IMG/VR virus record: IMGVR_UViG_3300021963_000642
Span: 1 to 24,140 of that record
DNA length: 24,140 nt
Source: a virus
Direction: 5' to 3' (one strand)
Of the stretch, positions 1,080 through 16,280 are shown in pieces. Within the stretch, counting starts at the first letter, position 1; every line of letters begins with the position of its first letter. The translations under genes and the position numbers were made by a program. The notes below the pieces were generated by a model. It saw nothing but the letters and a program-made list of their open reading frames with translations, was not told the origin of the DNA and ran no database searches.

Positions 1080-2186
1080 TTATTTACTATCTGTCATGGA
1101 AAGAACTCCTCGCCAAGTTGTTCCTCCATCATCTGTAATAAATGTTAATACATCAACACCACTTACGGTAAATGATGGCGCTGTGCCGCCAGGCCATTTG
1201 ACTGCAGCCGGCCATGTTAGTGCGGCTGATCCACCATTAGTTAATTCTAAAACAAAACCCATTGCTGCAGGAGATGAAAGTGGATTAGAAAAGGTCCATG
1301 TTGTAGTACCAGCAACGGTTGCTGATACATAATTACCTAAAGCTAAATCTATAGTTCTACTACCAGATCCACTTCCCAATGCATTATGAGTTGTGCCGTA
1401 TTGAGTAATAGTTCTATTGCTGTTTATGTATGCACTGCCTAATATTGCAATATTTTCTGTATAAATGAAATTACTATGTACGTTGCCTCCAATAGCCGCA
1501 CCTCCAGAAACTTGTAATGCCGCTGTAATATCTGTATTTGATGTTGATGGACTAGTGTTGGTAGTTATAATTCTACCACTTGTTGTATTAATTGTGCCGG
1601 CAGCACCGGTGGCACCTATACCAGTAGAACCAGAAGCACCTTGTATACCAGTAGAACCAGTAGCACCAGTTAATCCTGTAGAACCAGAAGCACCTTGTAT
1701 ACCTGTAGAACCGGAAGCACCTTGTATACCTGTAGAACCGGAAGCACCTTGAGTACCTGTGGAACCCGAAGCACCTTGTATACCTGTAGAACCGGAAGCA
1801 CCTTGTATACCTGTAGAACCGGAAGCACCTTGTATACCTGTAGAACCGGAAGCACCAGTTAATCCTGTAGAACCAGAAGCACCTTGTATACCTGTAGAAC
1901 CAGAAGCACCTTGAACACCTGTGGATCCTGAAGCACCTTGTATACCAGTAGAACCAGTAGCACCAGTTAATCCTGTAGAACCAGAAGCACCTTGGTCGCC
2001 TTGAACACCAGTAGCACCAGAAGCACCAGTTATACCTGTAGCTCCTGTAGTACCTGTTGAAGATCCCGAAGCACCTTGTGGACCGGTAGAACCAGTAGCA
2101 CCAAGTTCTCCAGGTCCGGTAGCTCCAGTTAAACCTGTGGCACCTGATAAAGCTACACCAGTTATTTCGCTTTGTAATAATGTCAT
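1080..2186 (-). CDS. Collagen-like tail fibre protein with globular C-terminal domain
   Basis: The protein has 368 residues. After a 14-residue N-terminus, residues 15-197 are Gly-X-Y triplets dominated by GAT, GAS, GST and GIQ, a proline-poor collagen-like tract expected to form a trimeric shaft. The Gly-X-Y register breaks near GPGELG and GSSTG. Residues 198-368 are a beta-rich domain containing [36 protein letters not shown] and DGGTTWRG, a C-terminal module widespread in tail fibres and phage-encoded collagen-like proteins. This module probably forms the trimer cap or a receptor-contact head. No strong ribosome site is visible before the ATG. A tail assembly chaperone-like gene follows immediately. 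The collagen DNA shares a 77-bp identical stretch with the 932-residue collagen gene 9 kb away. The fibre call is secure; which fibre it forms is unknown. Confidence 0.85.
1596..2144 (-). repeat. Gly-X-Y coding repeat tract of the second collagen-like gene
   Basis: Short degenerate 9-, 18- and 27-base units encode GAS, GST and GIQ triplets. Units such as ggaagcaccttgtatacctg recur many times in succession on the plus strand between about 1690 and 1855, which suggests recent expansion. Confidence 0.9.
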
Positions 2187-6333: not shown

Positions 6334-6510
6334 TTAATACCCTTTTATTTTTCTTACAATTAATTCTACATAACACTCAGAACACATAAACGCCATCATC
6401 AACCACATAAACCACATTTGACCTGTGATGTTATTTGAACCACATAATGTTGGACTATTATACTCCAACCACGTCAATATTAAAAAAATAGGAGCAAATA
6501 TACATTTCAT
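6334..6510 (-). CDS. Small Cys-containing membrane protein, translationally coupled
   Basis: I choose the ATG at 6510 (58 residues) because it overlaps the TGA of the methyltransferase gene as ATGA, a classic coupling arrangement; a longer TTG start at 6540 would lie inside that gene. The protein has two hydrophobic stretches, residues 3-17 and about 30-52 (GQMWFMWLMMAFMCSECYVE), with a basic end (VRKIKGY), so a two-pass inner-membrane protein is likely. Cysteines lie at 3, 23, 43 and 46. I do not recognise a family. Small phage membrane proteins can be holin-like, superinfection-related, or anchors for a modifying enzyme. The strict coupling to the methyltransferase favours a shared job, but that is inference. 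Confidence 0.55.
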   Translation of the reverse strand: MKCIFAPIFLILTWLEYNSPTLCGSNNITGQMWFMWLMMAFMCSECYVELIVRKIKGY

Positions 6511-7148
6511 ACAGGAATTTTTCCAAATCCATCTACCCAAGATTGATTTGGATTAATGTTTTTCCATTCTTCATATGTTTTACTAACGAAAGAAATTCCG
6601 GCACCAATGTCTATCAAATGTATAACACGGCTTTCTGGTAGTTCAGCAGTCAATAAATTTTTACAATTATTCGTTATTTCTTGGTATTCATTATGAGATG
6701 TTAAAACATCTTCTGTTATAACACAATCAAAAGAATTTAAACCAGTTACTTTTTTAACTTCAGACACAAAATTATTATCTAATACAGATATGTTGTAAAT
6801 TTCAAATTGATTTTTTTCAGAAGGTTTATTTTTATTTGTTTGTATGTAATGAGAATTATCACAACCATAAACTTTCATACCTAATTTACTTAATTCTTCC
6901 ATTAAAAAACCAAATGCACATCCCACAACAAAAATTTTTGAACCAGTTTTTATATCAAATCGATTGACTATGTTCTGTGCTCGTTGTTTAAAAAACAAAT
7001 TATCTTCAAAAAATAATCTACTATACGAAATTGTAGAATCAGTACAAATACAGGTTCTGCGATGCTTGGCACCACAACCTCTTAACTTGTAATAATATTT
7101 GGAATATGCTTGAGTGTAACCAGCTTGATCCCATGTATAAATTTGCAC
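6507..7148 (-). CDS. SAM-dependent methyltransferase, class I
   Basis: The 213-residue protein shows a Rossmann methyltransferase core. Motif I is KIFVVGCAFGFLMEEL (71-86), the acidic ribose-binding position follows in VYGCDNS (93-99), and FDCVITEDVL (140-149) is the post-II strand. The N-terminal 60 residues are unusual, with Tyr-rich YSKYYYKLRG and cysteines at 25, 33 and 35. The start is GTG, supported by GGAG eight bases upstream and by its position just after the preceding TAA. It lies among fibre genes and overlaps the small membrane protein downstream by ATGA. Substrate cannot be read from sequence. Possibilities are sugar O-methylation of fibre glycans, protein methylation, or modification of a small molecule. 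I see none of the DNA-methyltransferase motifs (DPPY, PCQ), which makes a DNA modification role unlikely. Confidence 0.75.
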   Translation of the reverse strand: MQIYTWDQAGYTQAYSKYYYKLRGCGAKHRRTCICTDSTISYSRLFFEDNLFFKQRAQNIVNRFDIKTGSKIFVVGCAFGFLMEELSKLGMKVYGCDNSHYIQTNKNKPSEKNQFEIYNISVLDNNFVSEVKKVTGLNSFDCVITEDVLTSHNEYQEITNNCKNLLTAELPESRVIHLIDIGAGISFVSKTYEEWKNINPNQSWVDGFGKIPV

Positions 7149-7150
7149 GA

Positions 7151-7519
7151 TTAAACTCCAGTAATTGGCATAGTTGGTCTAAAAAATAAATCTGTTGTGT
7201 TGACTGCAAAGCCTAAGCATACTACTGTTGTCGTTGAAGTTGGTGTTGGTGGTGAACTGGTGAGTGTACCATCAGATGCTAAAAAATAAGGTGCACCAGC
7301 ACTTAATGAAGTGAAACCAGATACGATTCCCTGTCCATAATAAACACCTCCTTGTTTAACTAACAATGCATTTAATTGAACTGGTGTGTCAGTATTTGAC
7401 GCATCACTAACGGTATTTGAGCCACTAACACGAACCACTTTACCATTGGTACCACCCGTGAGATTGGGTATTGTAACCGCAACACTAGTAATAATACTTG
7501 TTGATTTAATAAAAGACAT
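7151..7519 (-). CDS. Small beta-rich virion/fibre accessory protein
   Basis: This 122-residue protein has no signal peptide and no enzyme motif. Its central region (VVRVSGSNTVSDASNTD, then GGVYYGQGIVSGFTSLSAG, YFLASDGTLTSSPP and CLGFAVNTTDLFF) resembles the small beta-barrel or decoration-like modules seen at the ends of phage fibre proteins, where a G-x-Y-FL-x-x-x-G-x-L-T motif and a closing G-x-A strand recur. It has a good AGGAG ribosome site six bases before its ATG and starts one base after the upstream stop. The most likely role is a fibre or baseplate accessory, perhaps a tip module encoded as a separate gene. The specific function is not recognised. Confidence 0.6.
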   Translation of the reverse strand: MSFIKSTSIITSVAVTIPNLTGGTNGKVVRVSGSNTVSDASNTDTPVQLNALLVKQGGVYYGQGIVSGFTSLSAGAPYFLASDGTLTSSPPTPTSTTTVVCLGFAVNTTDLFFRPTMPITGV

Positions 7520-7520
7520 C

Positions 7521-8471
7521 TTACGCTCCTAAACGTGTAACTTGTAAATAACTATTTGCTGTTAATGTTCCTGTACCGCCAGTATTTTTAATATACATTT
7601 TTATAAAATCATTTGCAGAAAAAGTATAAGTGGAATCAATATGAATAGTATCGTTTGGTCCAAAATTAATTTCATCCAATATTGTTGTGTCATTTTTCTT
7701 TAATATCAAATAATATGAATTATCTCCACCAACAGCACCAGCAATTATGTCAGATTTAATATTGTAGTACGCATTGGTATAAAATGTTACGGTATTGGCT
7801 AATGATCCGGTCCAATAAAAATCTCCAGCACCACTAGCATTAATGTTAAAATCAGTATTGTCCCAAACAATTGCAGTATTTGTTGATGTTACCGATTCTG
7901 ATCCTGTTAATATAGTTTTTACACCACTAAAAATTTGGCCAATGGTTGAACCCGCTGTATAACCTAAAAGTGTTACTTCAACAAAAGTATCTGTTGTTAA
8001 TTCTCCTGTACCATTATCTTCACTGGCTAAAATCTCAATATAATCTCCTGCAGCAAATTCAACTACATCATCATAGACGGCTGCTTGATTGGCCGCCTGC
8101 ATAATTGTTTCAAATGTTGTAATACCATTTTTTCTTATACTTGCATTATAACTTGCACCAGAACCTACTGTACCGGTAAGTAATTGAATATTCAATCTAT
8201 AATATCCAGCACGATTAAAAAATACTTTAGTTGGATTATTTGGTAGACTAAAGAAATCTCCTGTATCCCATATTTCACTATTAAAATTTAGCGGTGATAG
8301 TTGTGTTGTTAAAGAAACAGTATTCACAAATCCTAATTTTAAACCATAGAATGTATTACTTAAATTATTTTGAGTAACATTCCATTTTGTACCGTCATAC
8401 ACCCATGATATACCATTATTATCAGTGTATGTTGTATTAATAGAAGGAGAGGTTGGAAAATTTAATGGCAT
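7521..8471 (-). CDS. Fibre protein with two tandem C1q-like jelly-roll domains
   Basis: The 316-residue protein opens with the phage structural motif FPTSPSINTTYTDNNG-x-WVYDGTKW (5-30), common at the N-termini of tail fibre subunits. Two homologous domains follow, about 43-170 and 181-315. They align at AGYYRLNIQL with NAYYNIKSDI, at YNASIRKNG with YYLILKKND, and at FAAGDYIEI...GTGELTTDTFVEVTLLG with FSANDFIKM...GTGTLTANSYLQVTRLG. This pattern of hydrophobic strands resembles the C1q/TNF jelly-roll often placed at fibre tips. The duplication is old, since it shows at protein level and not at DNA level. The ATG lies 11 bases after the upstream stop with no clear Shine-Dalgarno. A receptor-binding or structural cap role is inferred. 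Confidence 0.65.
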   Translation of the reverse strand: MPLNFPTSPSINTTYTDNNGISWVYDGTKWNVTQNNLSNTFYGLKLGFVNTVSLTTQLSPLNFNSEIWDTGDFFSLPNNPTKVFFNRAGYYRLNIQLLTGTVGSGASYNASIRKNGITTFETIMQAANQAAVYDDVVEFAAGDYIEILASEDNGTGELTTDTFVEVTLLGYTAGSTIGQIFSGVKTILTGSESVTSTNTAIVWDNTDFNINASGAGDFYWTGSLANTVTFYTNAYYNIKSDIIAGAVGGDNSYYLILKKNDTTILDEINFGPNDTIHIDSTYTFSANDFIKMYIKNTGGTGTLTANSYLQVTRLGA

Positions 8472-8482
8472 CTGTATATTTA

Positions 8483-9175
8483 TTAAGTTATATTATATTC
8501 TCTTGCACGAAAATTTGGAGATAACATTGTACATCCAGATCCATGCCTTAATAAGAAATCCGCACCGTTTGCACCCGATGCTGTTGTTATTTGAAATCCA
8601 GTTTTAATGATTAAAAATTCATTATTTAATCTAACAATAGGAGCAGCCCAAGTTACCGTTGAAGTTTGCGGTGTTGTGGTTGTAGGTCCTGTTGCAATTG
8701 TACCTGCTTGTAATGCTCCAGTTAATTCCGTTACTCCTGAAAAAGCGGTACCATTACGAGTACCTTTGAACACTCTCAAGTTAATGCGCCCTGCACCCGT
8801 AGCTGATGTTGTAACTGATATCATGGGAAATGTAAACACCCAATTTCCTGCATCAAAAACTCCATTATATTCATACAATGTTGTTATTGAACCTGTATGA
8901 TATAATAAAGTTGGTGGTGTGAATGTAGCTGTTGCTGCAAATGATCCTGTCACCACCGGTGCTGTTGTATTAGGAACAATGGTGGTTGAGAAACCTGCAA
9001 CTTCACTTCCTTGAACCAAATCACGATAGTTATTGGCGGCCGTTTTTGCTGCAGTCCAACCAGACGCAGAAGTAGCTTGTGCTGGAGCCGTAGCTCGAGT
9101 AGGATCCCACCATAATATGTTTGCTGGTGCTCCTCCTGTTGCAACTTGTCTTAGTGTCCATGTCTTAGTTGCCAT
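8483..9175 (-). CDS. Beta-sandwich virion protein of unknown function
   Basis: The 230-residue protein begins MATKTWTLRQVATGG. It continues with an Ala/Thr-rich N-terminal third (to about residue 60) and then a beta-rich segment including TLLYHTGSITTLYEYNGVFDAGNWVFTF, RINLRVFKG and NEFLIIKTGFQITT, which looks like a jelly-roll or carbohydrate-binding-type sandwich. I do not recognise the family. It has no signal peptide, transmembrane segment or catalytic motif. Its first 11 bases overlap the end of the CxxCxxCC gene, so translation is probably coupled. Its position between the collagen-like fibre and the C1q-like protein argues for a fibre or fibre-cap component. Confidence 0.6.
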   Translation of the reverse strand: MATKTWTLRQVATGGAPANILWWDPTRATAPAQATSASGWTAAKTAANNYRDLVQGSEVAGFSTTIVPNTTAPVVTGSFAATATFTPPTLLYHTGSITTLYEYNGVFDAGNWVFTFPMISVTTSATGAGRINLRVFKGTRNGTAFSGVTELTGALQAGTIATGPTTTTPQTSTVTWAAPIVRLNNEFLIIKTGFQITTASGANGADFLLRHGSGCTMLSPNFRAREYNIT

Positions 9176-9542
9176 CTTCTACAATCTCAAATTTATAAGT
9201 ACAATCAGGCCAATCATTAATCATACTTGGATGTGTTGGTGACACACTACAACCATTTTTATAATATGCAGTATCTCTACCCACACACCCAGCTAAACCA
9301 TCTATCCATCTGAAGTATGCACATTTACCTGGTACTACTTGTTCTAATCCTGGAGCATTACCATTACCATCAACATCTTTAAAAATATTTTCTGTATCAT
9401 CACAGCAGTTGCCACAACGACTACAATAACCTGTTCGTTTTTGTTTTGATTGTGAATCACCTTCTACTGGTGCAAAGATAACGGTGTGTTCAGAATTTTG
9501 GTCAGCACCTTCAGGATAGTTAACTGGATAAATTGGTATCAT
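9165..9542 (-). CDS. CxxCxxCC (YkgJ-like) metal-site protein
   Basis: This 125-residue protein carries eight cysteines at 40, 43, 46, 47, 74, 86, 98 and 114. The first four form GYCSRCGNCC, the signature of the CxxCxxCC/YkgJ family (PF03692), whose members bind zinc or iron or may hold an Fe-S cluster. The later GKCAYF, AGCVGR, NGCSVSP and WPDC match the downstream cysteine spacing of that family in a loose way. The 39 residues before the motif are polar and disordered-looking. No signal peptide is present. It follows the large collagen-like gene by four bases without a visible ribosome site and overlaps the next structural gene by 11 bases, so it is embedded in a fibre operon. It could be a metal-holding virion part or an enzyme partner; the sequence does not decide. 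Confidence 0.65.
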   Translation of the reverse strand: MIPIYPVNYPEGADQNSEHTVIFAPVEGDSQSKQKRTGYCSRCGNCCDDTENIFKDVDGNGNAPGLEQVVPGKCAYFRWIDGLAGCVGRDTAYYKNGCSVSPTHPSMINDWPDCTYKFEIVEDGN

Positions 9543-9546
9543 AATT

Positions 9547-12345
9547 TTAGAATATTAATGTAACAGATAATTCGTTTACTGTACCAGCTATAGCAGTAGT
9601 TTCTAACCAAACAAAACTACCTGCCGGTATGGTTGTATTTCCGGTTAATGTAACTGCTGTACCTGTTGTTATGTTTGTGACTGCTTGAGCTGAAACAACT
9701 GCTGTACCTACTGCACTTCTATCTGAATCATAACGTATTGTAATTGTAACTGATTGACTAGCAGAACCACGAAGAACTGCTTCTACTTGTGTAACAGTTA
9801 TTTGAACTGCTGTATAAAAGAATGTTATATCTTCAGCTGAAGTTGGATCTGCAATTGAAAGAGCTTTTGGTGATGCTGAACCAGTAGGACCTGTAGAGCC
9901 TGTGGCGCCAGACACACCAGTAGCTCCAGTTAAACCAACGCCAGTAGCACCTGAAGCACCTTGAGTACCTGTGGATCCTGAAGCGCCTTGGTCGCCTTGA
10001 ACACCAGTAGCTCCAGTTAATCCTGTGGAACCCGAGGCACCTTGAGTACCTGTAGCACCAGAAGCACCAGTTATACCTGTGGCACCAGAAGCACCTTGTA
10101 CACCAGACGCACCAGTTATACCTGTAGCACCAGACGCACCTTGTACACCGGAAGCACCAGTTATACCTGTAGCACCAGAGGCACCTTGAATACCGGTAGA
10201 ACCAGTAGCACCTTGTATAGAAGCACCTGAAGCACCAATTACTCCTGATGATGAGTAAACTTGCCAAGTGGTACCATCGTAAACAATACTCACTTCTGTA
10301 TTGGCCATATTAAGCGCAACATTGTCAACAACATTTTCTATTGTTGAACCATTTCTAAAAATTAATAAATTGTTTTGTCCCCAATTATAACCATCAGCTA
10401 TTTTTATTGTATCACCTGAAGAAGGTGTGGCCGGTAGTGTAAATGTAAAAGAACCACCTCTGGTATTTGCAATATATTGTCCACCAGAAATACCATTTGT
10501 ATTGGCACTTATAACAATCCAAGGAGTTAAAGAACCTGTAGCACCAGTAGCTCCAGTTAATCCTGTGGAACCCGAGGCACCTTGAGTACCTGTAGCACCA
10601 GAAGCACCAGTTATACCTGTGGCACCAGAAGCACCTTGAGTACCTGTAGCACCAGAAGCACCAGTTATACCTGTGGCACCAGAAGCACCTTGAACACCTG
10701 AAGCTCCTTGGGTACCTGTAGCGCCTGAAGCTCCTTCTATACCTGTGGCACCTGAAGCACCTTGAACACCGGAAGCTCCTTGAGTGCCTGTAGCACCAGA
10801 CGCACCTTCTATACCTGTGGCACCTGAAGCACCTTGAACACCTGAAGCTCCTTGGGTACCTGTAGAACCAGAAGCACCTTGAGTACCCGTGGAACCAGAA
10901 GCACCTTGAATACCTGTAGAACCTGTGGAACCTGCTGGGCCTGGCGTACCTGATAAACTAATTTGCCAAGAAGAATATGTTCCAGAACCAACAGTATTTG
11001 TAACATTAACTACCATTTCTCCAGTTGTTGAATTATATGTAGAAATGGTTCCTTCCATATAATTCAAACCATCATAAGCAATCTTTACAATTTGAGATGG
11101 TATGTAAGCTAATGATGTTTCTACATAAAATGTTTTTGTGCCTGTACCTATTGTTAACGTGTTTGAACTTAGTGTTGAAAATTGGTCACCTTGTATACCG
11201 GTGGCTCCAGTTAATCCTGTGGAACCAGAAGCACCTTGTATACCTGTAGAACCAGAAGCACCTTGAACACCTGTGGATCCTGAAGCACCTTGTATACCTG
11301 TGGCTCCCGTTAGTCCTGTAGATCCTGAAGCACCTTGAATACCCGTAGCGCCTGAAGCTCCTTCTATACCTGTAGAACCAGAAGCACCTTGAACACCGGA
11401 AGCTCCTTGTGTACCTGTGGAACCTGAAGCACCTTGAGTACCAGTAGCACCTTCTATACCCGTGGCACCTGAAGCACCTTGAGTACCAGTAGAACCGGTT
11501 AATCCTGTAGAGCCAGAAGCACCTTGAATACCTGTAGCTCCTTCTACACCAGTAGCGCCAGAAGCACCTTGTACACCAGACGCACCAGTTATACCTGTGG
11601 CACCTGAAGCACCTTGAGTACCTGTGGAACCAGAAGCACCTTGTACACCAGACGCACCAGTTATACCTGTAGCACCAGAAGCACCTTGAATACCGGTAGC
11701 TCCTTCTATGCCTGTGGCACCGGAAGCTCCTTGTGTACCTGTGGAACCTGAAGCACCTTGAGTACCAGTAGCACCTTCTATACCCGTGGCACCTGAAGCA
11801 CCTTGAGTACCAGTAGAACCAGTAGCACCAGTTAAACCAGTACCAGTAGCTCCTTGTACACCAGTAGAACCTGAAGCACCTTGAACACCAGTAGAACCAG
11901 TAGCACCAGTTGATCCAACACCAGTAGCTCCAGTTAAACCAACACCCGAAGCACCTTGAACACCAGTAGAACCAGTAGCTCCAGTTAAACCAGCACCAGA
12001 AGCACCTTGTATACCGGTAGCACCAGGTACACCTACTCCAGTGGCGCCAATTGGTCCAGTTGATCCTGTGGCACCATCAATTCCGTTTGTGAGTGTTGGG
12101 TCAGCAAATAGTATCCATTGAGTGCTTGTACCATCATTATAATAAATGTAGGTTTTACCTGTGTCGGTATCTAACCATAATTGATTTTCAAATGGAATTG
12201 CGGGAGCTGCCGTGTTGGCATAGACATCCAAATTGTATCGATCACCGACCCATCGGCCAGCATCATCGACTACAGCTTTGGTATTTGTTGTGTTTCCAAC
12301 GGCCAAGCCGTTTTTAACTATGAAATAGTTTGTATTAGCTGCCAA
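9547..12345 (-). CDS. Large collagen-like tail fibre with three Gly-X-Y shafts
   Basis: The 932-residue protein is modular. Residues 1-87 form an N-terminal domain ([32 protein letters not shown]) typical of phage fibre attachment ends. Gly-X-Y tracts lie at 88-386, 466-604 and 704-822. Two globular inserts lie between them: 387-465 ([22 protein letters not shown]) and 605-703 ([19 protein letters not shown]). Residues 823-932 form a beta-rich C-terminal head. X and Y positions are mostly Ala, Ser, Thr, Ile and Gln with almost no Pro, so the helix may rely on trimeric caps. The start is TTG: an in-frame TGA lies two codons upstream, there is no other start before the conserved N-terminus, and AAGGGG lies ten bases upstream. 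Two glycosyltransferase genes precede it, which may bear on modification of its many Thr and Ser residues. Confidence 0.88.
9880..10236 (-). repeat. Gly-X-Y coding tract 3 of the large collagen-like gene
   Basis: Encodes residues 704-822. Units of [15 protein letters not shown] type recur. Bases 10002-10098 are identical to 10542-10638 in tract 2 (97 bp, offset 540). Confidence 0.9.
10534..10950 (-). repeat. Gly-X-Y coding tract 2 of the large collagen-like gene
   Basis: Encodes residues 466-604, between the two globular inserts. It contains the second copy of the 97-bp repeat and a 27-base pattern encoding [15 protein letters not shown]-type units. Confidence 0.9.
11188..12084 (-). repeat. 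Gly-X-Y coding tract 1 of the large collagen-like gene
   Basis: Encodes residues 88-386, the longest shaft. Bases 11394-11496 and 11718-11820 are identical (103 bp, offset 324 bases or 108 codons), showing an internal duplication in frame. Bases 11222-11298 are identical to 1870-1946 in the other collagen-like gene. Confidence 0.9.
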
Positions 12346-12385: not shown

Positions 12386-12393
12386 TATTTATT
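12386..12393 (-). promoter_or_regulatory. Candidate T4-late-like promoter motif AATAAATA
   Basis: Seven of eight bases match the T4 late consensus TATAAATA, on the coding strand directly after the stop of the GT4-methyltransferase gene and 40 bases before the collagen-like gene start. In such an AT-rich sequence the match could be chance. Confidence 0.35.
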
Positions 12394-14073
12394 CTATTTT
12401 GGACTTGGCCTTTCAAAATATAAAATATTATTTACAAACCACCCCATATGATATCCTTGTCTGGCATACTCAACCAATTGCTTTTCTTTTTCTAAGTTTC
12501 GAACTAGTCCTGCTTTAGTTATTTTTTCAGCCCAATCTTCTTTATTTTTACAGTTGATGTGTCCTATACCACCTTGGCCAATGGCTGCGGCTGTCCAGAT
12601 AAGGTTTTTTTCTACGGTTGATACAACCTTTTCAACGACCTCATCTTCTCGTTCTGATTCAATATGTTCAGCCACTTCCATACATATGACTGTATCGGAT
12701 TTTTCATCAGTGATATCAAACAAACTTTGATATTTTAAATGTTCTTTTCCATGGACTCTATCATCAATATCAAGTCCACTAGTTTCAACATTAATGTTTC
12801 TTAATGCTTGAACATAGGTACCTGGTCCACATCCTATATCTAAAACATTTACAGGTTTTAATTCACTTTTAATCCACTCAGCTAATCGTTTTGCCCATGG
12901 CCATTCTTCTGAATGTATATTATCGTAGTTCATTCTTTCTGGTAATTTAGGATATTCTTTTTTCAACCAGTTCAAATCTGCTCGTTGTGGATGAGGTTCA
13001 TACCAACCATTGCCTGTGTAAACATCAAGCACCATTTGAAAATATTCTTCATACATTGGTGCAACTTTTTCTAAAGTAAAGTTCTCAGCCCATGTGCGAC
13101 AGTTTTTTGGATCAATTCGGTCAATATTTTTGGCAGCCCAAACAAATTGATCCATTGTTCGACAACGATAACCTGTATACCCATGTAAATTGTTTTCCGT
13201 AAATGAACCCCAGTCGGTAGAAATTGTTGGTGTACCAGAAAACAAAAGTTCCATTTGAACTCCACCAAAAGGTTCAACATACTGTGAGGGCACAAATGCA
13301 CCTTTGGCATCTGCCATTAAACGCTTTCTTTGTTCAACTGTCGCATAACCAAATTCAATTACATGGTCTGGAGTTTTTCCATGTCCCATTTCTTTGAGTG
13401 AACTTTGACCAGCAATAATTAATTTTGCACCAATTCTTTCTGTTGCCTGTATAGCAACATCAACACCTTTACCAGAATATACTCGACCCAAGTAAAGAAA
13501 ATAATCTTTCTTTTTTTCTTTAAATGTAAAATCATCTGAATCAAAATAGTTAGGAATAACTGCATCATACCAATCTTGTTTACAGGTACCTACAGCTGAG
13601 AGTCCATAGTATGCATGATAGATGGCATATGATTCAAATATTTTCCATCGGGCCCAATGGCCACCAGCATAACCAATACCAGGTTCTACACAAATTAAAT
13701 CTGGATGCGCATCACATACTGGCCGAACACCATGTCCCCAAAAAGGAAGAATAAAGTCGTGCTTTTGTTTTCTTAGGCCAACCTCACGAATTGCATTGGT
13801 ATAAAATGTTTTATATGCATGATCGGAGGTATCAAATTTAAAAAAGTTTTTACGCCAGTCATAAGAACCATAAGCTATTTCAAGGTCTTTGTTTGTGGTA
13901 ACGGTAACGTGTTCATCACAAATTAAATCAGAATCCTCATGGCCATAATGTATGATAGTGTGTCCACGAGCCTTCATCATCTTACCAAATTTAACCACCT
14001 TTTGAGTATAAGCACAAGCATTATACTCTTTACTAGACACCGTATGTGGTAAACCTAAAATATGAAATCTCAC
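12394..14073 (-). CDS. GT4-family glycosyltransferase fused to a SAM methyltransferase
   Basis: The 559-residue protein joins two enzymes. Residues 1-350 are a GT-B glycosyltransferase of the GT4 type: an N-terminal Rossmann half, then [20 protein letters not shown] (191-210), a nucleotide-sugar binding strand, then [20 protein letters not shown] with the EX7E motif at Glu267 and Glu275, and [16 protein letters not shown]. Residues 405-510 are a class I methyltransferase: [11 protein letters not shown] (408-418), GLDID (433-437) and [10 protein letters not shown] (462-471). Such proteins transfer a sugar from a nucleotide donor and may then methylate the glycan. The start is GTG, overlapping the TGA of the upstream glycosyltransferase as GTGA, with AGGAG six bases upstream. 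Donor, acceptor and methylated position cannot be read. A role in fibre or host-glycan modification is inferred from context. Confidence 0.85.
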
Positions 14074-15662
14074 TTTCTACTCCTAATTGTATTCAAATAT
14101 AATTTAATATCACCATATGGCATTGCAAATCGGTCTACCAATTCTGGATGTTTCATTTCTACTATTGTAAAGATACTTTCTTCTGTACCAATATTACCTT
14201 GATTCAAAGATTCATATAAGTATTCGTTAAATTTTTGGTTAAATTGCACAATGTGTTCTAATCTGCCACCAAAAATAGTTGCTCTACATACATAGTTAGG
14301 CTTTCTTCCACAGATTTGTTCCATGGCTTTAATATTATAACCGTGAATTTCTGTATCTGTATAATAATCAAAAGAGGTTAAAAAGAAAGATTTTTCGGAT
14401 AGTTTATTAAAATTAAATATATCAATGTGTTCATTAATTCCGTAACTGTTACACATACCAGAATCGATCCAATAAAACTTATAACTGCCATTATAACCAA
14501 ATGGATTTTCTTTGGCAACACTTTCTAACAATTGATTTTTGTATAATGTGAGTGGAATATAATACTTGTCTTTGATAACACTTGTTTTCATCCACTCTGC
14601 TTGATTAATCCATTCATCTTTTGTAATGATATTTTGTATTGATTGAAAATAATCAGTATTTTCCAAATCTTCAATCTGTAAATTTTTTAACACAAGAGGC
14701 AATGTACCTCTATGTTCTTTAATAAAATCATGGTATTTTTCTTCAGCAAATACTACCATAGGATTTCGGCATTGTAATACCTTTTTCATACCCTCTAGAT
14801 AATGAACCTCAAAACTCCTATCGCCACGGGAAATGTTTAACATAGCAGTCACCATAGTTACCCCCCAAGGCGACCTCCAATGATTATCCAAGAACATATA
14901 GTTCATTTTAGGCCATAGTCTATCCGCTTGAAGTTCGGCAGGATAATAATCTTCTGGTGTGGTACCGTCATTTGGACGTTTGCCAGCCATTCTAGAACAA
15001 TTATCACCTAAATGACGAGCATATTCACCGTTTAAAAATACCGATTTAAATCCTAGTGCTAAAAATCTGCGATCAATATTCCATTCATTGTGCCACTTTT
15101 CAACACGACCTAAAAGAATTAAATCATCTCTACGCTTTAAATTTGGACTACCAATCCATCCATACCAATGTAAATGATAATCGGATATACGCCATGGTTT
15201 TTTCCAATAGAACTGGTTATCGATTAATTCTTTTTCATAACATTCAAATCCTTCATTCTCAAATGTTCGCCATGAAATATCAACTGTACCAATGTTTCTA
15301 TATTTTTGAAGAATTTCTTTTGATTGATTTAGATAACCAGGCTTTAATAATTCCCAATCATCCTCTAAGTAAAAAATGTATTCTGAATCACAATATGATA
15401 CCATAAAGTCCATAGCCCACCATTGCGATCTGTTTTTTGGAAAACAAACAACATCCGATATGTCACCATATCGTTCAACCAAAGTTTCAAATACACCAGG
15501 TCGTGCAGAATCATCCACAATAACCATTTTGGTTATGTAATCTCTAGTTTCTAAAAATGACTTGAGTGTTTTGTCCAGAACATCTAAACGATCACAACTT
15601 AAAACAAATGTTGTGGTGTCAGATTCGGGTTGTTCAATTGTATGAATTAATAATTTATTCAA
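14070..15662 (-). CDS. GT2-like glycosyltransferase fused to an HtrL/YibB-type domain
   Basis: The 530-residue protein has two parts. Residues 15-225 resemble a GT-A family 2 transferase: [20 protein letters not shown], then KMVIVDDS, and the metal/nucleotide motif [10 protein letters not shown] with Glu100-Asp101-Asp102. Residues 266-515 match the HtrL/YibB family (PF09612): [15 protein letters not shown] (266-280), [24 protein letters not shown] (300-310), YKFYWIDSG (394-402) and RATIFGG. That family is linked to bacterial surface-glycan loci and is predicted to be a glycosyltransferase. The only available start is TTG at 15662, preceded by GGA; an in-frame TAA, the stop of the upstream fibre gene, lies seven codons earlier, so both genes share a frame. 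The end overlaps the next glycosyltransferase by GTGA. Two active sites imply two sequential sugar additions. Confidence 0.8.
14080..14084 (-). promoter_or_regulatory. Ribosome binding site deciding the GTG start of the GT4-methyltransferase
   Basis: AGGAG lies six bases before the GTG at 14073 and inside the end of the upstream gene. It supports GTG as the start and translational coupling by the GTGA overlap. Confidence 0.65.
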
Positions 15663-15680: not shown

Positions 15681-16280
15681 TTAAATTGTTAATGTGTTTC
15701 GATATACCTTAACTGTTGTAATTGAATATGTTGGAGTAAATAATAAATTTAAATTTCCACCTGATATAGAAGAATCAAATGTGCCTAAAGAATTATTACT
15801 GTACATTTCACCATATTGTGCCAACCAAACATTGGCACCATCGTGTAGTGTTCTCAATTCAATTACATGATAACTTGTGTTTGAAGTCATCTGTACTTCA
15901 TATTTAGCACTTCTATAAATGCTGGCATTAAAACTGTCTACCGTTACCTCTGATGTTGAAGAAGTTGTAAATTGAGTGGTCTTTTCTCCTACTGATGCAT
16001 TGATAGTAACTGTTTTGGTCGCTGTGCAGGCTGATAAGGTGACATTATTACCAGCAACAATATTTAAAGTGTCAGTTGATGTTGTTGCAAGTATGAGATT
16101 GCTCTCAACATTAATGGTACCAAAAGTTAATTGGTTCGTAATGTTTTTGATTGTGTTTGTTGGATCGGAATAGAATAGTTTACCATCAGCTGTATTGATA
16201 GCAATTTCACCATTGGCAAGAGATACCGGAGAGATACCCGTTGCAGAGGATTTTTTAATTCGTATTGATGTATTTGCCAT
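15681..16280 (-). CDS. Short tail fibre/structural protein with MANT-type N-terminal module
   Basis: The 199-residue protein starts MANTSIRIKKSSATG and runs into SLANGEIAINTADGKLFYSD (20-39), an N-terminal fibre module recognisable in many phage tail proteins (R-I-K-x-S...L-x-x-GEiAiN..DGklf). It is shared in outline with the 483- and 65-residue genes just upstream. Residues 103-199 form a second domain with VDSFNASIYRSAKYEVQM, HVIELRTLHDGANVWLAQYGE and LGTFDSSISGGNLNLLFTP, a beta module common in structural proteins of marine T4-like phages as I recall them. The gene starts four bases after the coiled-coil gene. It lacks the D-G-G-x-F tail of its neighbours and ends NTLTI. A fibre or baseplate role is likely. 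Confidence 0.7.
   Translation of the reverse strand: MANTSIRIKKSSATGISPVSLANGEIAINTADGKLFYSDPTNTIKNITNQLTFGTINVESNLILATTSTDTLNIVAGNNVTLSACTATKTVTINASVGEKTTQFTTSSTSEVTVDSFNASIYRSAKYEVQMTSNTSYHVIELRTLHDGANVWLAQYGEMYSNNSLGTFDSSISGGNLNLLFTPTYSITTVKVYRNTLTI

Follow-up and report, generated by a model that had tools for sequence, protein, structure and literature searches.

We analysed a viral DNA record of 24,140 bases (IMGVR_UViG_3300021963_000642, hereafter the window), a fragment whose genes run off both ends. Genes flanking the locus of interest are relatives of T4-like tail-fibre and baseplate genes and the DNA has weak similarity to cyanophages; judged by its genes, the window virus is a T4-like, cyanophage-type phage. 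The locus lies on the minus strand and comprises two genes for glycan enzymes followed by a gene for a collagen-like fibre. The first enzyme (14070..15662, 530 amino acids) carries glycosyltransferase family 2 (GT2) and HtrL_YibB domains and is called GT2-HtrL below. The second (12394..14073, 559 amino acids) fuses a family 4 glycosyltransferase (GT4) to an S-adenosylmethionine (SAM)-dependent methyltransferase. The two genes share a GTGA stop/start overlap (14070..14073; the junction reads AAAGTGAGATTT), and only 48 nucleotides separate the second from the fibre gene (9547..12345, 932 amino acids). A preliminary description of this DNA had reported both fusions, their overlap and the adjoining Gly-X-Thr/Ser fibre, and we recovered all of these at the same positions and on the same strand.

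In the second enzyme, Pfam detected Glycos_transf_1 at residues 184-307 (E 7.9e-17) and Methyltransf_23 at residues 396-473 (E 2.7e-8). Residues 1-359 matched the full length of the PHROGs profile phrog_3408 with 638 bits, and by this match the GT4 is a member of a conserved phage family. The AlphaFold model (predicted local distance difference test, pLDDT, 86.7) was recognised in the fold search as a GT-B glycosyltransferase joined to a class I methyltransferase. The solved fold that superposed best was the alpha-1,2-glucosyltransferase tll1591 (TMt 0.80). Since the top-ranked solved folds for the GT4 were mostly cyanobacterial enzymes using uridine diphosphate (UDP)-glucose, the donor is perhaps UDP-glucose. 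The motifs GRVYSGK196, EX7E (267-275) and DIGCGPG412 are intact. The EX7E residues E267 and E275 and the phosphate-binding residues R197 and K202 were invariant in 44 homologues; DIGCGPG412 is the SAM-binding motif I of the methyltransferase half, which gave a ChlM-type fold match. We infer that a sugar is the methyl acceptor from the fusion to GT4 and from the FkbM and TylF types found in relatives.

In GT2-HtrL, Pfam matched Glycos_transf_2 at residues 21-134 (E 1.1e-5) and HtrL_YibB (PF09612) at residues 268-509 (E 2.6e-9, profile positions 3-251 of 267). The AlphaFold model (pLDDT 81.9) contains two GT-A domains, suggesting that HtrL_YibB is itself probably a glycosyltransferase. The model matched the two-domain GT-A polymerases heparosan synthase 2 and K4CP, while LH3 and LH3/ColGalT1 were weak matches of low template modelling (TM) score. 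For the HtrL domain no sequence relative was found in the PDB, and the fold search gave GT-A matches at modest TM only. The motifs DDS50, EDDW100 and WIDSG398 are present, and the motif residues of the glycosyltransferase domains are mostly invariant among homologues. Structure prediction, which the preliminary description had proposed as a check, thus returned a tandem GT-A protein and a GT-B plus methyltransferase protein with the checked motifs intact, and both enzymes look active in these models.

We then considered relatives of the GT4, keeping 80 of 158 environmental loci besides the Synechococcus phages S-CAM7 and ACG-2014f. GT4 identity across T4-like phages was mostly 70-84%. GT2 or GT2-HtrL was present in 40 loci, about 32 of which also had GT4, indicating that the pairing is not due to chance. 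Relatives carried the GT4 fused to MT23, to FkbM (L043, L045), to both (L004) or to a second GT4 (L068), and in L101 and its cluster-mates a TylF-type macrocin O-methyltransferase gene lay between GT2-HtrL and GT4. Unfused neighbours of GT4 included TylF-type and other methyltransferases, a second GT4 and a 2-oxoglutarate (2OG)-Fe(II) oxygenase. On this comparative evidence, the GT4 forms a hub around which partners are exchanged. Sugar O-methyltransferases are known in both the FkbM and the TylF family, and this is the strongest argument for a methylated glycan. Because the partner slots of GT4 hold different types of sugar O-methyltransferase (MT23, FkbM, TylF), the proposal of the preliminary description that the module makes a methylated glycan is well supported by these gene arrangements. 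Counts of methyltransferases near and far from GT4 were not used as a control, because the profiles had been built from the near genes and the comparison was circular.

Pfam scans of near and far genes, which are free of this bias and served as the control, found a 2OG oxygenase in 10 of 110 genes near GT4 and in 2 of 110 far genes. An oxygenase of this kind (PF13640) stands beside GT4 and collagen in S-CAM7, in ACG-2014f and in the record G059, where the order is collagen, GT4, 2OG-Fe(II) oxygenase, Gly-rich protein, collagen (L390 3424-12506); none was found in the window fragment. A 2010 review considered a possible role in DNA repair for the prolyl-4-hydroxylase-type oxygenases that cyanophages carry (PMC2984593), so that a link of these oxygenases to collagen is not established. 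The sampled near-GT4 proteins also included four Peptidase_C1 matches (4/110), and in L040 a papain-family cysteine protease gene (7118-7960) lies directly upstream of GT4. The only bacterial genome match for the GT2-HtrL fusion was a contig of a Bacteroidetes metagenome-assembled genome (L497); it holds the enzyme pair and phage-type genes, and is probably a misbinned phage contig.

The association of GT4 with collagen was strong at the genome level. The GT4/GT2 survey included 21 GT4-positive records of 60 kb or more, and collagen genes were detected in all of them (weakly in G018), as they were in S-CAM7, ACG-2014f, G059 and the 121.9-kb record of L082. Of 32 T4-like records without GT4 and of the same minimum length, 6 had collagen; one of the ten cultured cyanomyoviruses in this group exceeded the curated cut-off. 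Control records were first sampled by portal gene, which gave few long contigs; lineage-matched portals and the cultured cyanomyoviruses were added to them. On dereplicated counts the Fisher p value was about 1e-9. The set is biased by fragment length; when only complete genomes or those of at least 120 kb were counted, collagen was present in 13/13 with GT4 and 2/15 without (p about 3e-6). Collagen genes occupied 47 of 401 gene slots within three genes of GT4 and 9 of 332 at five or more. The distance between the two was bimodal in the 13 long records, nine of which had them within 0.4-5.2 kb. The preliminary description had named enzyme pairs regularly found in phages lacking collagen as evidence that would contradict it; all pair-bearing records of at least 50 kb encode collagen, and those without it are all fragments of at most 42 kb.

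Several observations weigh against a functional link between GT4 and collagen. From the way they were chosen, GT4-positive records were bound to contain a structural region, and this exaggerates their difference from fragments sampled by portal gene. Collagen matches were, moreover, accepted at E 1e-3 in the GT4-positive set but at a stricter 1e-6 in the last control set. In the remaining 4 of the 13 long records, 28-50 kb separate GT4 from the nearest collagen gene, a distance no shorter than for a random gene, and in such distant loci it adjoins a gene for a nucleoside diphosphate (NDP)-sugar epimerase, a fatty-acid desaturase or a heptosyltransferase-like protein. Most GT2-HtrL/GT4 pairs come before neck and terminase genes rather than collagen, and six of the T4-like records that reach 60 kb but lack GT4 have Thr-rich collagen all the same. 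The genome survey suggested in the preliminary description bore out co-occurrence genome-wide, but not proximity in those four records. Its idea of a self-glycosylated fibre is plausible and has more behind it than gene position; it gained from the co-occurrence and from L082, the closest relative of the enzyme pair, where the order is GT2-HtrL, GT4-methyltransferase, ATAAATA, collagen (with a different fibre C-terminus); it lost in that the pair does not, as a rule, lie directly beside a collagen gene.

The fibre itself is a clear collagen relative (Pfam Collagen, E 3.8e-72), with GAS, GAT or GST making up 107 of its 177 counted Gly-X-Y triplets. The Y position holds Thr in 44% and Ser in 25% of triplets, and Pro amounts to only 2%. 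A second Gly-X-Thr/Ser collagen-like protein, possibly a second acceptor, is encoded at 1080..2186 (minus strand, 368 amino acids, 55 counted triplets). The window collagens have about 0% Lys at Y and about 4-6% charged residues per triplet. Thr at Y was more frequent in collagens of GT4-positive than of GT4-negative phages (p 0.02). However, Thr occupies Y in 31.6% of triplets over all bacterial collagens and in 48.3% in Gram-positives (PMC8968730). Being ordinary in bacteria and present in GT4-negative phages, Thr-rich triplets are a weak sign of glycosylation, and we set aside this argument of the preliminary description; that such triplets are so common also tells against our interpretation. 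The stability of the phage collagen EPclA has been credited to X-Pro and charge, and the protein was unglycosylated when made in E. coli (PMC3368898); the window collagens have neither of these stabilisers.

The timing of expression was approached through promoter-like motifs. The core of the cyanophage late promoter, NATAAATA in S-PM2, is included in MTAAATA (PMC2984593). The window contains six MTAAATA sites (21271, 19140, 18332, 15901, 12386, 8477), all on the coding (minus) strand and five of them intergenic; an exact match to TATAAATA was not found in the window. Chance predicts 18.6 sites on both strands, more than were seen, an apparent avoidance of the motif elsewhere. Among relatives, 23 of 38 GT2-HtrL genes (loci not dereplicated) have MTAAATA within the 120 nucleotides before them. 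The window's own nearest site is about 245 nucleotides upstream of GT2-HtrL, inside the gene of a small fibre-type protein (15681..16280, minus strand) that ends only 18 nucleotides ahead of it, so that no space is left between the genes for a promoter serving the enzyme pair alone. The ATAAATA at 12386..12392, in the 48-nucleotide gap before the fibre gene, is kept in L082 and may be the fibre's own promoter. From these motifs and the position of the genes, late expression of the pair is probable, and this would favour virion targets over an early exclusion function at the host surface.

Taken together, these data lead us to propose, with about even confidence for and against, that the enzyme pair belongs to a late-expressed virion glycosylation module whose likeliest acceptor is the collagen-like fibre. 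We infer the order of reactions, the donor sugars, the acceptor residues and the function of the module as follows. GT2-HtrL, with its two GT-A domains, and the retaining GT4 would act sequentially on virion proteins soon after their synthesis in the cytoplasm, building a short glycan that the fused methyltransferase would cap with an O-methyl group. The likeliest acceptors would be Ser and Thr of the Gly-X-Thr/Ser shafts of fibres 9547-12345 and 1080-2186. The triple helix there has little Pro and few charges, and the glycan could make it more stable as well as change the fibre surface. A broader proposal, which we hold only tentatively and would not back against its negation, is that T4-like phages have a modular collagen-maturation pathway glycosylating their own Gly-X-Thr fibres in the cytoplasm. 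Its hub would be the GT4, working with exchangeable sugar methyltransferases and a tandem GT-A protein, and in relatives a 2OG oxygenase of the prolyl-hydroxylase type would take part as well. No pathway of this kind in bacterial viruses was found in the literature searched.

Among other explanations, the one that survives best, though we judge it unlikely, is that the enzymes alter the infected cell, acting on its lipopolysaccharide/O-antigen or on a surface glycan, and so block superinfection. Glycosyltransferases in the host-recognition region of pelagimyophages have been interpreted in this way (PMC7029224), HtrL reportedly features in work on the outer core of Acinetobacter lipooligosaccharide (PMC4172580), and the NDP-sugar epimerase, GT9-like heptosyltransferase or fatty-acid desaturase neighbours of some GT4-positive loci would fit it. 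However, many of the recognisable GT4 neighbours are structural genes (neck, terminase, fibres), the enzyme pair is enclosed in a structural gene run with late-type motifs, and collagen is near-obligate in GT4-positive genomes and infrequent in GT4-negative relatives. Superinfection-exclusion functions are, in addition, expected early.

Less probable still is that other structural proteins (short fibres, neck/whisker, capsid) are glycosylated and that collagen co-occurs only because both mark complex tails. The usual position of the pair beside neck/terminase or non-collagen fibre genes agrees with this, as does the precedent of glycans on mycobacteriophage major capsid proteins (cited in PMC11256854). 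Against it, the genome-level link to collagen spans divergent T4-like lineages and in L082 the collagen gene is directly downstream. That the enzymes act on the bases of phage DNA (giving glucosylated hydroxymethyl bases) or on another small molecule is very improbable: the phage glycosyltransferase HY126 (9iqz) was among the weaker fold matches of the GT4-methyltransferase and T4 uses DNA glucosyltransferases, but the genes lie in a late structural location, their sugar O-methyltransferase partners come from several families, and the best fold matches are glucosyltransferases for glucans and pterins, not for DNA.

Three further genes of the minus strand may be mentioned. A stand-alone methyltransferase with a GTG start (6507..7148, 213 amino acids) lies in the fibre gene cluster and is a possible accessory enzyme. 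Directly downstream of the collagen fibre, 9165-9542 encodes a 125-residue protein with CSRCGNCC and more Cys (CxxCxxCC-like), for which Pfam gave no match even at E 5. An RCC1-repeat protein (2-574) is truncated by the fragment end; in L091, RCC1-repeat genes adjoin GT4.

Phage collagens are common, and what keeps them stable in the absence of hydroxyproline is not settled in general. If our proposal is true, methylated sugars on collagen Thr/Ser would explain the stability of the window collagens, which have little Pro or charge, and a phage glycosyltransferase family at present classed as moron would gain a function. Confirmation on virions would mean that a bacterial virus glycosylates collagen that it encodes itself, and bacterial viruses would join the mimivirus precedent for viral collagen modification. 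As cultured marine Synechococcus phages also carry the GT4, the proposal is testable there. S-CAM7 and ACG-2014f have the same phrog_3408 GT4 (71-74% identical over residues 1-359; annotated as group 1 glycosyltransferase or hypothetical) in a structural module with collagen proteins; they differ in that their GT4 lacks the methyltransferase fusion, and the matches there did not include GT2-HtrL.

The preliminary description names BclA, whose glycans on Thr include methylated sugars. This Bacillus exosporium protein is a glycosylated bacterial collagen-like protein, but belongs to the spore of a cell and not to a phage (PMC8968730). Mycobacteriophages, as described by Freeman et al. 2023 (cited in PMC11256854), have covalent virion-protein glycans and phage-encoded glycosyltransferases; their glycans are on major capsid proteins and not collagen fibres. 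In PBCV-1 A064R, as in the GT4-methyltransferase, one viral polypeptide holds glycosyltransferase and sugar O-methyltransferase domains; these act in sequence on a virion glycoprotein (PMC9614988). A064R differs in being a fusion of two glycosyltransferases and a methyltransferase, in its glycosyltransferase families, in making an N-glycan and in belonging to a eukaryotic virus, whereas the glycosyltransferase domains of the window are split over two proteins and their acceptor is only proposed. The Mimivirus lysyl hydroxylase/glucosyltransferase L230 acts on hydroxylysine, whereas the window collagens are essentially without Lys at Y; the window GT4 is moreover GT-B and not GLT25D1-type, a methyltransferase is present and the host domain differs. 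L230 nevertheless offers the parallel of virus-carried enzymes that modify the virus's own collagen-like proteins (PMC9614988); the 2OG-Fe(II) oxygenases beside GT4 and collagen in S-CAM7, ACG-2014f and G059 add to the likeness, and the window too encodes two collagen genes.
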